The position numbers and the translations under genes are program-made. The notes under the pieces are model-generated. The model was not told the DNA's origin and made no database searches. It saw only the letters and a list, made by a program, of their open reading frames with translations. From a virus, in IMG/VR virus record IMGVR_UViG_3300009074_000040, positions 1 to 21,682 of that record: a stretch of 21,682 nt of DNA. The stretch is one strand, 5' to 3'. This document shows positions 401-5,683 of the stretch, piece after piece (position 1 is the first letter of the stretch; the number at the start of each line of letters is the position of its first letter).

Positions 401-526
401 ATGCACTACGATGAACAGCGCGAAGAATTGGCGATTAAGGAAGATTTCAAGCCTTGTTTAATCTTGGCTAATTACTGCTGCTTGAATGTTCTCATCATTT
501 TTTCACCACCACGACTAACAACATAG
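401..526 (+). CDS. Small plus-strand ORF, 41 aa, hypothetical
   Basis: The ATG at 401 is preceded by GAGGTGA at 391-397, a near-perfect ribosome site, and this is the main reason to list the ORF. The first 18 residues are charged and look like a normal protein start (MHYDEQREELAIKEDFKP). The rest is Cys- and Leu-rich and is read from the strand antisense to the 3' end of the holin gene, with a 55-base overlap. It may be a true small gene, or the surviving start of a longer early gene whose body was lost when two modules were joined here. Its direction is opposite to the late operon, so the two transcription units converge. Function unknown. Confidence 0.3.
   Translation: MHYDEQREELAIKEDFKPCLILANYCCLNVLIIFSPPRLTT
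441..465. terminator. Hairpin between convergent genes
   Basis: Inverted repeat AAGATT (441-446) and AATCTT (460-465), with a short inner CAAG/CTTG-like pairing, begins 6 bases beyond the holin stop codon. It sits where the minus-strand late operon ends and the plus-strand ORF from 401 is being read. The position suits a transcription terminator or bumper hairpin, but the stem is AT-rich and there is no long T run on either side. Support is weak. Confidence 0.3.
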
Positions 527-864
527 CCGCCTAAACCAATCTGTAACAAAATCCATGCATCATCTGCCAGCCTAAACGTAAGCAAGCCAAACGAGTCACA
601 CACGACTAAAGCCAAAAAGGTTAGCATTGTTATTGGTCGCCAGTTTCTTTGCATCCAGCTTTCACCTGTGGCCTCTGCTGTGATTATTTTAGTCTTACTG
701 TCGAGTATCTTTGTTTCATACTCTAAAACCTTAGTGTGAAGCTCGTTTTCAAGCTTTGCTAATGCATTTGAAAGGATCAGCTTTTCTTCAGTGCTGGTGT
801 GTAGGTCATCAACTAACTTTGCTGCTGGTGCGAATATCTCACCTATAAAGCTGAGTATGTTCAT
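472..864 (-). CDS. Holin, 3TM superfamily (GTA_holin_3TM type), 130 aa
   Basis: This is a small inner-membrane protein at the end of the lysis cassette. An amphipathic charged N-terminal half (about residues 15-65, coiled-coil-like, Glu/Lys-rich) is followed by a W-M-Q-R-N-W-R-P-x-T motif around residues 69-78. Two hydrophobic segments come next (about 77-95 and 103-118), then a short basic tail. That layout and the NWRP motif are typical of the 3TM phage holins found beside endolysins. The SD GGGAG lies at the end of the endolysin gene and the spacing between the two genes is one base. With another holin-like gene at 1213-1494, it may act as pinholin, antiholin or second holin. The family assignment is from recognised sequence pattern; the exact role is inferred. 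Confidence 0.75.
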   Translation of the reverse strand: MNILSFIGEIFAPAAKLVDDLHTSTEEKLILSNALAKLENELHTKVLEYETKILDSKTKIITAEATGESWMQRNWRPITMLTFLALVVCDSFGLLTFRLADDAWILLQIGLGGYVVSRGGEKMMRTFKQQ

Positions 865-865
865 G

Positions 866-1213
866 TTATTTACTCCCGTTATGTTCTAGTGAGTAATGAT
901 TTCCATCACCTTTAGGGAATCTGCCACCCCATCTGCAAAGCGGGTGCAATGACTCCCAATAGACCCCGAATGGCTCATGCTCTTTATCTGTTTTGAATAA
1001 CTCGCCATCTTTAAATATATTTAAATCAGCAGCTAACTTTAATTTGTGGCATGAATTTTTATGGCCATACCCTATATCTTCGCCTATATGGCCATGCATT
1101 CTAGGGTCGCGGAACCAATCGCCACCCCTAATCTCATGATCGCGTTCGTGTATGAAAAACATAAGCTTACATAGTAGACGGCTAAATAGCTCTTGCTTTT
1201 GGCCTAGGGTCAC
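866..1213 (-). CDS. Endolysin, M15-family L,D-/D,D-peptidase, 115 aa
   Basis: This is a single-domain zinc peptidase that cuts peptidoglycan peptide stems to lyse the host. Zinc-ligand motifs are visible: S54-C-H56 followed by A-A-D63 (the SxHxxxxAxD block), and W95-G-G-R-F, then D103-G-N-H106. These match the M15 (VanY/CwlK-like) phage endolysin family, and the full domain fits in 115 residues without a cell-wall-binding domain, as expected for a Gram-negative host. There is no signal peptide, so release through a holin is expected. Translation appears to start at GTG 1213, which shares a base with the TAG stop of the holin gene (TAGTG). The N-terminal helix (QKQELFSRLLCKL) belongs to the family, which supports this start over the internal Met18. 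Confidence 0.88.
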   Translation of the reverse strand: MTLGQKQELFSRLLCKLMFFIHERDHEIRGGDWFRDPRMHGHIGEDIGYGHKNSCHKLKLAADLNIFKDGELFKTDKEHEPFGVYWESLHPLCRWGGRFPKGDGNHYSLEHNGSK

Positions 1214-2108: not shown

Positions 2109-2846
2109 TTAATTGATTGTGTATTTAAGGTTTAACACCTCTACCGAGTATTCGATCTCATAGTCTTCTGGCTTGTTAAAGTCTTTTGCCCAATACATTC
2201 CAAAATAATTAATATGGCGCTCTGTATAACTCATTGTTTGGTATTCTGCATCGCTCACCCTAACGCCATTAACTTTAAGTGATGCCCAGCCTCGATCATG
2301 TATATCAAAGCTGATGTCGTAATACTGCCCCGCCGTTATTTTATATTCACCGCGCATAACTTCAAGTCCGTGCGTATGGTTATAGTCGTCAGGGTCATCA
2401 GGGTCAAAGTTCCACGGCTTAAACTGCCAAGAGTTTTCCCAATGCTGTAAATACAATTGATCAGCAAAGCGCCTTATTTTTATAGTGGTTAGCGGGTGAT
2501 TTCCATTTGTATCAAGTGGGTCAAGCTTCGCCCAATCCTGAAATATAATAAGCCATTCTGGAGCGCTTTCACTTTGATGAATCTTGAATGTAAAAGAATA
2601 ATTTCTTTTGTTTTGCAGGTTGAATGAGCCTTTTTCAATTTCTATACCCACCTTTCTGCACCCGCTATTATTCAGGTTAAGGCATCCTGAATTACCATGA
2701 GCTGTCAACTTCCAGCTATCCGGTGCTAAGTCTTCAATATAGCCGTTAAAGTAGGTGCTTACGCGCTGAGTGCTAGAGCCTTTGTAAATGTAATCAAGGG
2801 CGCTAACACTGAATGACATTACCATCAATAATAAAAACTTAATCAC
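2109..2846 (-). CDS. Secreted polysaccharide-lyase-like (jelly-roll) protein, 245 aa
   Basis: The start is GTG at 2846, sharing one base with the preceding TAG and placed after GGAGG at ideal spacing. The N-terminus is a clear Sec signal peptide: Lys3, hydrophobic core 4-14, and a V-S-A cleavage site after residue 16. The mature part is beta-rich with a C55/C63 pair likely to form a disulfide. It has the element order of ConA/jelly-roll polysaccharide lyases: a strand ending WLIIFQDW, a basic loop KIRRF, GEYKITAGQYYDISFDI, WASLKVNGVRV and a late NYFGMYWA strand. An Asp-rich loop (FDPDDPDDYNH) could bind calcium. The lyase relationship is by overall pattern, not by proven catalytic residues; a carbohydrate-binding lectin is the main alternative. 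A signal peptide is unusual for a phage late gene and implies export from the infected cell before lysis. Confidence 0.5.
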   Translation of the reverse strand: MIKFLLLMVMSFSVSALDYIYKGSSTQRVSTYFNGYIEDLAPDSWKLTAHGNSGCLNLNNSGCRKVGIEIEKGSFNLQNKRNYSFTFKIHQSESAPEWLIIFQDWAKLDPLDTNGNHPLTTIKIRRFADQLYLQHWENSWQFKPWNFDPDDPDDYNHTHGLEVMRGEYKITAGQYYDISFDIHDRGWASLKVNGVRVSDAEYQTMSYTERHINYFGMYWAKDFNKPEDYEIEYSVEVLNLKYTIN

Positions 2847-3271
2847 TATAGTGCCTCCATAACCTGATATGCGTAATCTATGTCTTCTGTGGTTGTGCCA
2901 GTGTCTTTTGTTAGTGTGAAAGACAAGCAGTTTATTTCTTTAAGCAATCTGGCAGAGTTCAGAACTGATGTACTGCCATCTGCAACACCAAAAACAGTTG
3001 CGCTCGCTGGTGCAGATGGGGTGGCATCAGTTAGTGACTCTCCGCTAAACAAGTCAACCCCATCGACCGTCAGCGTCATACCCGCTTCAGTTGTTGCCGT
3101 TCCAGTCGTCAAGTAAGTAAGCTTCAAATACTGATTAGCCCCAGCAGTTGCAGTTAATATATCACCGCTTGCCCCCAATGCTATTTGGTTGCTATTAAAT
3201 GCGACTGGCTTAAGTATGCCTCCAGCCGTTTGAACCACTATCTCGCCACATGGGCCGTATGTTTGAGCCAT
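2846..3271 (-). CDS. Hypothetical virion/tail-associated protein, 141 aa
   Basis: This protein has no signal peptide and no TM segment. It is Ala/Thr/Gly-rich and probably all beta, with alternating hydrophobic strands such as QYLKLTYLTT, MTLTVDGVDLFSG and LSFTLTKDTG. Its composition matches the small accessory tail or decoration proteins common in this region of siphophage genomes. It lies between the second fibre gene and the secreted protein gene, overlapping the latter by one base. Its place after the fibres would fit a fibre cap, chaperone or head/tail decoration. No family was recognised and the role is inferred from position. Confidence 0.6.
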   Translation of the reverse strand: MAQTYGPCGEIVVQTAGGILKPVAFNSNQIALGASGDILTATAGANQYLKLTYLTTGTATTEAGMTLTVDGVDLFSGESLTDATPSAPASATVFGVADGSTSVLNSARLLKEINCLSFTLTKDTGTTTEDIDYAYQVMEAL

Positions 3272-3281
3272 TATTTACCCC

Positions 3282-4037
3282 TTAACTTAAATATGTTATT
3301 TCGTCAGCGCTTAACACAAAATCATAAAACCTAAGACCTTGCATGTTAACTGTGAAGTCCCCGGACGTTGTTACGCTTCCAGTTAAATCCATGTCCGCTG
3401 TAATTCCTGTCGCTATAGTATCTGTAGCAGCAAGTATGCCGCCTATGTATAAATTAATTAAGCCTTCAGAATACGTCAAAACAAGAGATTGAAGCGCTGA
3501 TGATGTGGCGCTTGTTGATGATGTCGCCTTGTATTGCAGTAAATCACTACCAAGCAAAACCGCCTCCCAATTGCCACTTGAGTTAGTCCCTACGCTAAGC
3601 AGATCTCCAGATAAGCCAGGCACTATAAATACGTTTTGACTTGACGCCGCTTCCGCATAGGAACCGATACTCAAAACAACAGAAAACCCATCGCTTAAAA
3701 GAGGTACATTATCAGCAACCTGAATATTATAGTAGGTGTCATCAACGGTTATTAACCATCCTTCGGCTTCTTCCCTTGGCGCGTCCACTAATGCAGTTTG
3801 AGCATTCCCGTATATATCGATATATGCAGCAGTTGTTGGGCGCTCAATTGTTAGCGTGTTTTTTAGGACGCTAACTAGATTATTTTTACGGTATAGCCAG
3901 CTTAACGGGTTGTCTATTAACGCCTTTCTTACGCTGTTGAATCCAGCCCCGTCTGCCCCGTTAGTCCCCGGGGAACCATCTGGGCCTGAAGGGCTTATTA
4001 CCACCTGTGTAGGTGTATCTGTTGCTGTAACTGGCAT
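3282..4037 (-). CDS. Tail fibre with collagen-like start and LamG-like end, 251 aa
   Basis: Residues 18-32 are five Gly-X-Y triplets (GPD GSP GTN GAD GAG), a short collagen-like trimerising stretch as in phage fibres. The C-terminal two thirds is beta-rich and ends with a LamG/ConA-like signature: a strand LVLTYSEGLINLYIGGILAAT, then MQGLRFYDFVLSADEITYL, the usual last strand and helix of such lectin domains. This suggests a receptor- or glycan-binding side fibre. The start codon shares one base with the stop of the larger fibre gene (TAATG). The domain order repeats that of the preceding gene, so the two are likely paralogues or share exchanged modules. Confidence 0.65.
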   Translation of the reverse strand: MPVTATDTPTQVVISPSGPDGSPGTNGADGAGFNSVRKALIDNPLSWLYRKNNLVSVLKNTLTIERPTTAAYIDIYGNAQTALVDAPREEAEGWLITVDDTYYNIQVADNVPLLSDGFSVVLSIGSYAEAASSQNVFIVPGLSGDLLSVGTNSSGNWEAVLLGSDLLQYKATSSTSATSSALQSLVLTYSEGLINLYIGGILAATDTIATGITADMDLTGSVTTSGDFTVNMQGLRFYDFVLSADEITYLS

Positions 4038-5683
4038 TATTTAGCCCCCATTAAATACTGAATATTTGGCTCAGAAAGAGCTAAGTTGTAAAACATACAC
4101 CTTGAAAGGTAGCCGTCTAAGTAATTATTAGCACCATTATAACCTAAGTAAGCATTAGCGCCTATCGTGGTGGTGCTTCCCATCGCCTGAGTACTTGCCA
4201 GTCTTTGCTGGTTGTATATTTTTAGTTCCGCCCCATCATAAACAAGGGCAACGCCAGTAAAATCAAATGTTTGATATGTAGCTGTATTGGCCCCATTGGT
4301 CAACGTCATTATTTTATTTGTGTAGGTTAACGAAAACTCATCTGTAGAAGATAATCCATTGCTAAACACTGTTTTTGTGTCGGCATCGTCCGGTATGCCA
4401 ACAACCGAGAATAAAAAAGTCCACGGCAGATTTGGCGCTGGAAAATTAGTTGCGTAATCCATGCTTACATTGTCAGCGGATCTAGTTTTTACAGCTGTTG
4501 GCGACTCGATATAACTAGATATATCTCCGGTTTCAACTTGGACATTTGATATGTATAGCTGAGCTGTCAAGCCTTCACTTGTTGCTTTCAAAGTTAAAGT
4601 GTCGCCTGCCCCAGCCTTAACCACAACAGAAAGCCTTGCAAATCCCGATACTGATGGCTGACTCATTGCAACTTCAACTCCGTCACCTAACGACGCTGTA
4701 AGGCTGTTAAGAGATCCTGCCGCTATCCATGCATAGATAGACACAGTGTAATCAACTCCGGCAGTTAAGGTTCCTGTATCTGATTTTAATGTGATGGTTG
4801 GCAATGAAACAAAGTTAACTCTGATGTTTTCGTACAGCAAACCAAACGGACTCAGCCCTTCGTAAGCTGATATAGTTCCATCCGTTACCGTCCAGTTTTT
4901 TAAATCGTTACTGTGCAGGCATAGATTTTGCTTTTCTTCTTCTATTAAGAACCCGTTTTGATTTTCTCGCATTACCAGAACTTCATAATTAGCTGATTTA
5001 GCCAATCCGCTTGTTCTTATGTAGTCAGTTAATTCTGTATCCTGAACCTGGATGCCAAACAGCCCAACCCTTGTCCCTGAATCGCCTCTAGGGTTTATAG
5101 ATATTAACGCTCCACCGCTAGCGTTTGGCGCTTTGATTACTCTCCTTTCCCAGTCGCTGGTGATGCTCCCTATCTCATATCTGGAGGTTCCAACAGCGAC
5201 ATCTAAACTTTCAACCGTGCCAGAGATAGACTTAATCCAAAAAGACAAAATTATGTAAGAGTCAGCAGCCCAGCCGCTTTGGTTTTGGGCTATAACGGGG
5301 TTTAGTATTGATGGGCTTCTGGTGTCAACATTCAAGTTTAACTCGCTGGCATTACTGCCGCCCAAAGGATCGGATATTGCGCCTACAACTGAAAACCTAC
5401 CTAAGCCAAAAGCATCCCACTGAGTATAGTTCTCTGAGTAAGTTACGTAATTTGTTGTTAATGGCGTATCTGTCCATTTAAGGCGGGAGTACCGATCAGT
5501 GTAAGACCCCTTGCCGGTGCGCGAAAATGTTATAAAGGCATTCTTTGAAAGCTTGTTTTGATGAAGCGCGTCAAGTATAGGACTGTCAACTGCTAGATCA
5601 TCAACATCTGCTATGCCGCTGCCGTTAATTCCATTCTGTCCGCTCTCGCCTTTATCGCCTGAGAACAAGGTAAATATACTCAT
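4037..5683 (-). CDS. Tail fibre: collagen-like start, two jelly-roll modules, LamG-like end, 548 aa
   Basis: Residues 9-23 are five Gly-X-Y triplets (GDK GES GQN GIN GSG). A conserved linker (VDSPILDALHQNKL) follows. Two repeated carbohydrate-binding-type beta-sandwich modules come next, roughly 75-235 and 250-405. Each begins with an N-x-x-x-x-S-x-x-x-x-W pattern (NYVTYSENYTQWDAF; NLCLHSNDLKNWTV) and ends with QV-x-(D/E)-T-(E/G)-x-(T/S)-x-YI (DTELTDYI; ETGDISSYI). These are the hallmarks of phage fibre/spike CBM-like domains. Residues about 415-548 form a LamG/ConA-like domain with a terminal GYLSRCMFYNLALSE motif. The role is host-surface binding. It overlaps the upstream BppU-like gene by four bases. 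Confidence 0.72.
   Translation of the reverse strand: MSIFTLFSGDKGESGQNGINGSGIADVDDLAVDSPILDALHQNKLSKNAFITFSRTGKGSYTDRYSRLKWTDTPLTTNYVTYSENYTQWDAFGLGRFSVVGAISDPLGGSNASELNLNVDTRSPSILNPVIAQNQSGWAADSYIILSFWIKSISGTVESLDVAVGTSRYEIGSITSDWERRVIKAPNASGGALISINPRGDSGTRVGLFGIQVQDTELTDYIRTSGLAKSANYEVLVMRENQNGFLIEEEKQNLCLHSNDLKNWTVTDGTISAYEGLSPFGLLYENIRVNFVSLPTITLKSDTGTLTAGVDYTVSIYAWIAAGSLNSLTASLGDGVEVAMSQPSVSGFARLSVVVKAGAGDTLTLKATSEGLTAQLYISNVQVETGDISSYIESPTAVKTRSADNVSMDYATNFPAPNLPWTFLFSVVGIPDDADTKTVFSNGLSSTDEFSLTYTNKIMTLTNGANTATYQTFDFTGVALVYDGAELKIYNQQRLASTQAMGSTTTIGANAYLGYNGANNYLDGYLSRCMFYNLALSEPNIQYLMGAK

Follow-up and report, generated by a model that had tools for sequence, protein, structure and literature searches.

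The gene P0001, located between the fibre and lysis genes of IMG/VR virus record IMGVR_UViG_3300009074_000040, encodes a predicted exported protein whose modelled fold and distant homology point to the jelly-roll polysaccharide lyases. The whole stretch of DNA analysed, 21,682 nucleotides long, is referred to here as the window. The protein belongs to a small, unnamed family that is absent from Pfam, PHROGs and NCBIfam and is common to bacterial exopolysaccharide clusters and several viral contigs. On balance, we favour the interpretation that it is an exported lyase-like enzyme acting on a uronate exopolysaccharide made by the host, in the periplasm and/or after its release at lysis. The coordinates of the gene, of the relevant parts of its product and of the neighbouring genes are given in Table 1.

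The genes of this region follow the order fibres, lyase-like gene, membrane proteins, M15-type endolysin and 3-TM holin, which bears out the placement between fibres and lysis genes given in a preliminary description of the sequence. The lyase-like gene starts with GTG and, within the sequence TAGTG, its start overlaps the stop codon of the upstream fibre-tip-like gene, so the two are probably co-translated. The neighbouring LamG tail proteins were tested for a relation to the lyase-like family, and none was found (P 0.68). The product of the fibre gene matches the NCBIfam model NF048003 GTA_spike_fiber with an E value of 1.5e-19. About 350 bases by the holin (positions 120–470) hold no clear gene and gave no tRNA or Rfam match. 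An array of GGTCTA/GGTCTG-type repeats (period 12/30, about 15 copies) is present at positions 1–60 of the window and at L001:8799-8974; it encodes a 77-aa RS-repeat ORF on one strand, and the window ends inside it.

Table 1. Location of the lyase-like gene, the notable parts of its product and the surrounding genes within the window
Feature	Position	Strand	Remarks
Lyase-like gene P0001	2109..2846	minus	245 aa; basis: ORF, relatives, fold
Sec signal peptide (predicted), residues 1-16 (MIKFLLLMVMSFSVSA)	2799..2846	minus	basis: sequence and hydropathy
Cys55-Cys63 pair	2658..2684	minus	invariant; probable disulfide
Arg64-Lys65	2652..2657	minus	aligns with the R-x-E region of PF14099 lyases
Gln103-Asp104-Trp105	2532..2540	minus	corresponds to the Q-x-H motif of jelly-roll lyases, Trp for His
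Asp-rich loop DPDDPDD, residues 148-154	2385..2405	minus	pLDDT < 50
Gly216-Met217-Tyr218	2193..2201	minus	corresponds to the G-x-Y motif carrying the catalytic Tyr of jelly-roll lyases
Ribosome-binding site GGAGG	2854..2858 (2858-2854)	minus	7-nt spacer to the GTG start
Upstream fibre-tip-like gene	2846..3271	minus	141 aa; stop overlapped by the lyase-like start
Tail protein, collagen-like start and LamG_3 domain	3282..4037	minus	context
Fibre protein, head-spike-fibre domain NF048003 and LamG-like end	4037..5683	minus	context
M15-type endolysin	866..1213	minus	context
Holin, GTA_holin_3TM / phrog_3427, 3-TM	472..864	minus	context

A second IMG/VR contig, 3300009426_000032, matches the window at 99.99% over the 8.8 kb examined. 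The large terminase shares 64% identity with its counterparts in Pseudoalteromonas phages HS1, HS5 and H105/1, close relatives of the holin were found in Paraglaciecola genomes, and on sequence grounds an Alteromonadales-type host is likely. A PF14099 protein encoded near the holin of L065 was considered as a prophage gene and rejected, as the gene is chromosomal. Related phages have the tail genes in common, whereas the content of the slot between fibres and lysis genes differs: it holds a large structural protein in H105/1 and HS1, a 647-aa protein in L009 and other small genes in L061-L063. In L004 it encodes a signal-bearing protein of 335 aa (L004:5530-6537), composed of a Sec-type signal and a domain matching the middle of the 769-aa tail protein of Pseudoalteromonas phage XCL1123; this is possibly an exported tailspike. 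Related proteins of the slot region are also encoded at L063:4385-4870 (minus strand) and L062:16305-16694; one has a signal-like N-terminus and lies on the opposite strand, and the other lacks a signal.

The N-terminus of the lyase-like protein, MIKFLLLMVMSFSVSA followed by LD, comprises a short basic n-region, a hydrophobic core and a V-S-A cleavage motif, and looks like a signal cleaved after Ala16. Its hydropathy ranks second among the N-termini encoded by the 27 window genes, behind a membrane protein, while the maximum for the chain after the signal (0.29) is one of the lowest. A hydrophobic N-terminus combined with low hydropathy of the remainder is the pattern of an exported soluble protein, so the product looks exported, as do its relatives by the same evidence. 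The Sec signal proposed in the preliminary description thus stood up; of the term “secreted” used there, export could be retained, but a Sec signal delivers a protein to the periplasm and not outside the cell. The anticipated cysteine pair was also found: the protein has exactly two cysteines, C55 and C63, both invariant in 10 of 10 family members, which probably form a disulfide. The Asp-rich loop DPDDPDD is real in the window protein, yet it is poorly modelled and not conserved across the family.

When the single protein was searched against Pfam, PHROGs, NCBIfam, PDB, phage and plasmid collections and genome contigs, no match was obtained; hmmscan against Pfam likewise gave none at E values up to 10, for either the window protein or its L076 relative. 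A six-frame search of 395 related genomes revealed one clear relative (36% identical, E 4e-32), which was then used as the seed for further searches; these identified six copies in five bacterial genomes. Matches occurred in 7 of 397 family-level genomes (two of them by weak short matches alone), whereas among the order-level genomes (n=395) only G239 had a family member and among the class-level genomes (n=369) none was found. Three further viral contigs carry the family. L127 also encodes NinB, NinG and structural proteins, and its lyase-like gene adjoins a fibre-tip gene that has relatives in the sister phages L004 and L063 (41–49 bits). In L128 the family gene lies beside an integrase gene, while L141 is a 328-kb contig with phage-like genes and some bacterial-type genes. 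The latter include PilY1-like and CheW-like genes, and nucleotide-sugar dehydrogenase-like and lipoprotein protease-like genes are located near its lyase-like gene (L141:13583-14383 and 4131-5219).

The resulting set of ten sequences (the window protein, three viral and six bacterial copies) has ten invariant positions: G35, C55, C63, F85, Q103, D104, P118, Y202, G216 and Y218. As relatives with these residues occur in five bacterial genomes and in three viral contigs besides the window, the observation is beyond chance. All ten members look exported when their N-termini are judged by eye and by hydropathy; two of the exopolysaccharide-cluster copies and two of the four viral copies have lipobox-type signals, and the remainder have Sec-type N-termini. 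The ten-member tree does not resolve where the viral copies belong and therefore points to no particular source of the phage gene. In a literature search of open papers, the family was not found to be reported.

AlphaFold2 applied to the single sequence gave a pLDDT of 37.6 and uninformative structure matches, whereas an alignment of the four viral sequences yielded an all-beta jelly roll (pLDDT 68.4, pTM 0.70) with poor stretches at residues 109–115 and 141–159. In the VIA-align ranking, PL20 glucuronan lyase came first, followed by PL7, PL18, PL36, ulvan lyase and PL13. Against this model of moderate confidence, the PL20 lyase 2zzj gave Z 18.1 and rmsd 3.3 over 203 residues, in agreement with a jelly roll, and the PL7, PL18, PL36 and PL13 lyases gave Z of about 15–17. 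The top Foldseek matches were alginate, glucuronan and ulvan lyases (E 2e-9 to 2e-8), with ConA-like lectin and sugar-binding domains among the weaker ones. A ten-sequence profile compared by HHalign with members of PF14099 (Polysacc_lyase) gave P values of 1.6e-7 and 2.4e-7 (probability about 94%) with matching motif order, against 0.1–0.8 for controls (shuffled, reversed and LamG); a profile restricted to the four viral sequences still gave 8.8e-6. Members of PF14099 themselves have PDB matches to heparinase I and the glucuronan lyase 2zzj. The profile HMM did not reach the curated PF14099 cut-off of 29.9 bits, and phmmer/profile searches found no sequence match of the protein to PL20 2zzj. 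The lyase-like jelly-roll layout suggested in the preliminary description is therefore retained, and the predicted jelly-roll lyase fold and ancestry are well supported by the model and the profile comparisons.

Several active-site features of these lyases are recognizable in the family. Gly216-x-Tyr218, the G-x-Y motif of PL7 and PL13, is invariant in the ten members and is the motif in which Tyr200 of the T. reesei glucuronan lyase sits, and position 65 is Lys or Arg in 10 of 10 members. The Q-x-H motif with its catalytic His, known from PL7 and PL13, reads QDW in the window protein; the canonical His is replaced by Trp in eight of the ten sequences, and only the relatives L138 and L139 have QDH. 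The catalytic set of PL20 consists of Arg51, His53, Glu55, Gln91, Tyr200 and Asp206 (PMC7601620). Gln103 and Tyr218 correspond to this set by motif, and a basic residue lies close to the Arg; at the place of the PL20 R-x-H-x-E the family has neither a conserved His nor a conserved Glu, and Asn224 may match Asp206. The window protein and most of its relatives thus lack the His of QxH (PL7, PL13) or RxH (PL20). The structural and active-site comparison proposed earlier upheld the lyase fold, the Gln, the Tyr and the basic residue, but not the canonical His. From the sequence and the model taken together, lyase activity of the window protein seems likely, and its catalysis plausible.

Among known enzymes, the PL20 endo-beta-1,4-glucuronan lyase of Trichoderma reesei (2zzj) is the best fold match and has the Gln and G-x-Tyr motifs in the same order as the phage protein, but identity is 14% and R-x-H-x-E (Arg51, His53, Glu55) is not kept in the latter. 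The PL7, PL18 and PL36 alginate lyases and the PL13 heparinase I likewise have the jelly-roll fold with Gln and G-x-Y motifs; they differ in having His where the phage QxH has Trp, are 8–15% identical and give no family HMM match.

The bacterial copies fall in the family holding Paraglaciecola genome G001 (Alteromonadaceae). Three of the six lie in exopolysaccharide clusters (G239, G490 and G423; loci L135-L137), and the other three are outside such clusters. The cluster of G239 encodes Wzz and glycosyltransferases, that of G490 glycosyltransferases, a flippase and two sulfotransferases, and that of G423 Wzz, glycosyltransferases, a flippase and a capsule synthesis protein. These three relatives share with the phage copy 29–32% identity, the invariant Cys pair, predicted export and the motifs Q-D-W, G-N-x-P, Y-x-T and G-x-Y. 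A gene for a GH88-type unsaturated glucuronyl hydrolase is located near the family copy in G239 and G490; in G490 the two are part of one run of closely spaced genes, and the hydrolase matches a solved GH88 protein with E 1e-77. The G239 and G490 copies are predicted lipoproteins with this GH88-type partner, whereas the phage copy has a Sec-type N-terminus and lacks a partner enzyme.

Unsaturated glucuronyl hydrolases have as their substrates the unsaturated products that lyases release. Since they need such products, the linkage of two relatives to a hydrolase counts for a lyase role. Of the proteins encoded in the cluster, those of this family are the strongest candidates for the lyase, although G239 also encodes a 650-aa protein without family assignment. 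A link of the family to uronate-containing exopolysaccharides is probable, and the polymer is perhaps sulfated. The location of the closest bacterial relatives, two of them with a glucuronyl hydrolase, lends weight to the earlier proposal that the protein acts on the cell’s own exopolysaccharide.

Degrading enzymes are usual inside exopolysaccharide operons. A precedent for an exported lyase in this role is AlgL, the periplasmic alginate lyase encoded in the Pseudomonas aeruginosa alginate operon, which clears the periplasm of polymer (PMC8829089). It differs from the phage protein in its alpha-helical fold and in being bacterial. The GH32 levan enzymes of Bacillus phages SP10, phiNIT1 and SPG24, for which action on host biofilm polymer was proposed (PMC4595243), resemble the window protein in being phage-encoded with a host polymer as the proposed target; they belong to another enzyme class, and a signal peptide is not reported there.

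Because of the missing His, the main rival to an exported lyase is a protein that only binds: a non-catalytic, lectin-like exported protein of lyase fold, attached to host exopolysaccharide or surface glycans and, for example, masking receptors or holding polymer. The Trp of the QDW motif would suit such a protein, as would the lectin and sugar-binding domains among the weaker fold matches. We nevertheless consider it unlikely, as Gln103 and Tyr218 are invariant, position 65 is basic in all members, two relatives keep QDH, two are linked to a hydrolase that needs an upstream lyase, and the structural ranking is headed by lyases. Most known phage depolymerases are components of the tail and attack the coat from outside. 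The window gene directly follows the fibre genes and overlaps the fibre-tip-like stop, which could fit a virion-bound tail protein with an uncleaved N-terminus, acting as a small fibre tip or depolymerase. Such a depolymerase would have an N-terminal virion attachment domain and no export signal; the window protein, of 245 aa, has a signal-like N-terminus, a single jelly-roll domain and no attachment domain. The Sec or lipoprotein signals of the bacterial and other viral members and an invariant Cys pair suited to an oxidising compartment also make a virion location quite improbable.

We give equally little credence to a factor of superinfection exclusion, an exported enzyme stripping or altering a glycan receptor so that other phages or progeny fail to adsorb to infected cells or debris. 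The export signal, the lipoprotein forms in two other viral contigs and the other exported or glycan-active-looking proteins in the sister-phage slot are consistent with it, but late expression is suggested by the gene's placement between late tail genes and lysis genes, and relatives are located in polymer-synthesis clusters. The surface change blocking re-adsorption that the preliminary description had envisaged gained no specific support. Marine bacterial jelly-roll lyases degrade algal polymers, and a secreted lyase could, as an auxiliary metabolic gene product, digest environmental (algal) uronate polysaccharide and feed the infected host. Viral PL6 alginate-lyase genes, which are on record (PMC12285232), speak for this option. 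It is nonetheless highly improbable here: the bacterial copies most closely related to it belong to polymer-synthesis clusters and not to polysaccharide-utilisation loci, little would be gained within a single lytic cycle, and no uptake genes are nearby.

The exported lyase-like enzyme that we favour would be made late, together with the tail genes, cross the inner membrane by Sec and gather in the periplasm in folded, disulfide-bonded form. Acting there, and around the cell once holin and endolysin have lysed it, the enzyme would cleave a host-made uronic-acid-containing polysaccharide by beta-elimination. Polymer would thereby be cleared from the envelope and the capsule or slime around the burst cell loosened, so that progeny could spread more easily. 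A wider proposal, which we advance tentatively, is that several unrelated phages each took up an exported lyase related to exopolysaccharide-cluster enzymes and use it from inside the cell, where it would contribute to the lysis programme by cutting the host's nascent or surface polymer from the periplasm; the slot that separates the fibre genes from the lysis genes would then be a swap site for such exported glycan-active proteins.

Jelly-roll polysaccharide lyases and phage genes for glycan-active proteins are already known; what is new is an unnamed family found in exopolysaccharide clusters and several viral contigs, in exported form. If the favoured interpretation is true, an exported lyase attacks the coat from inside or at burst, which would provide a testable account of how progeny escape from slime-coated marine bacteria.
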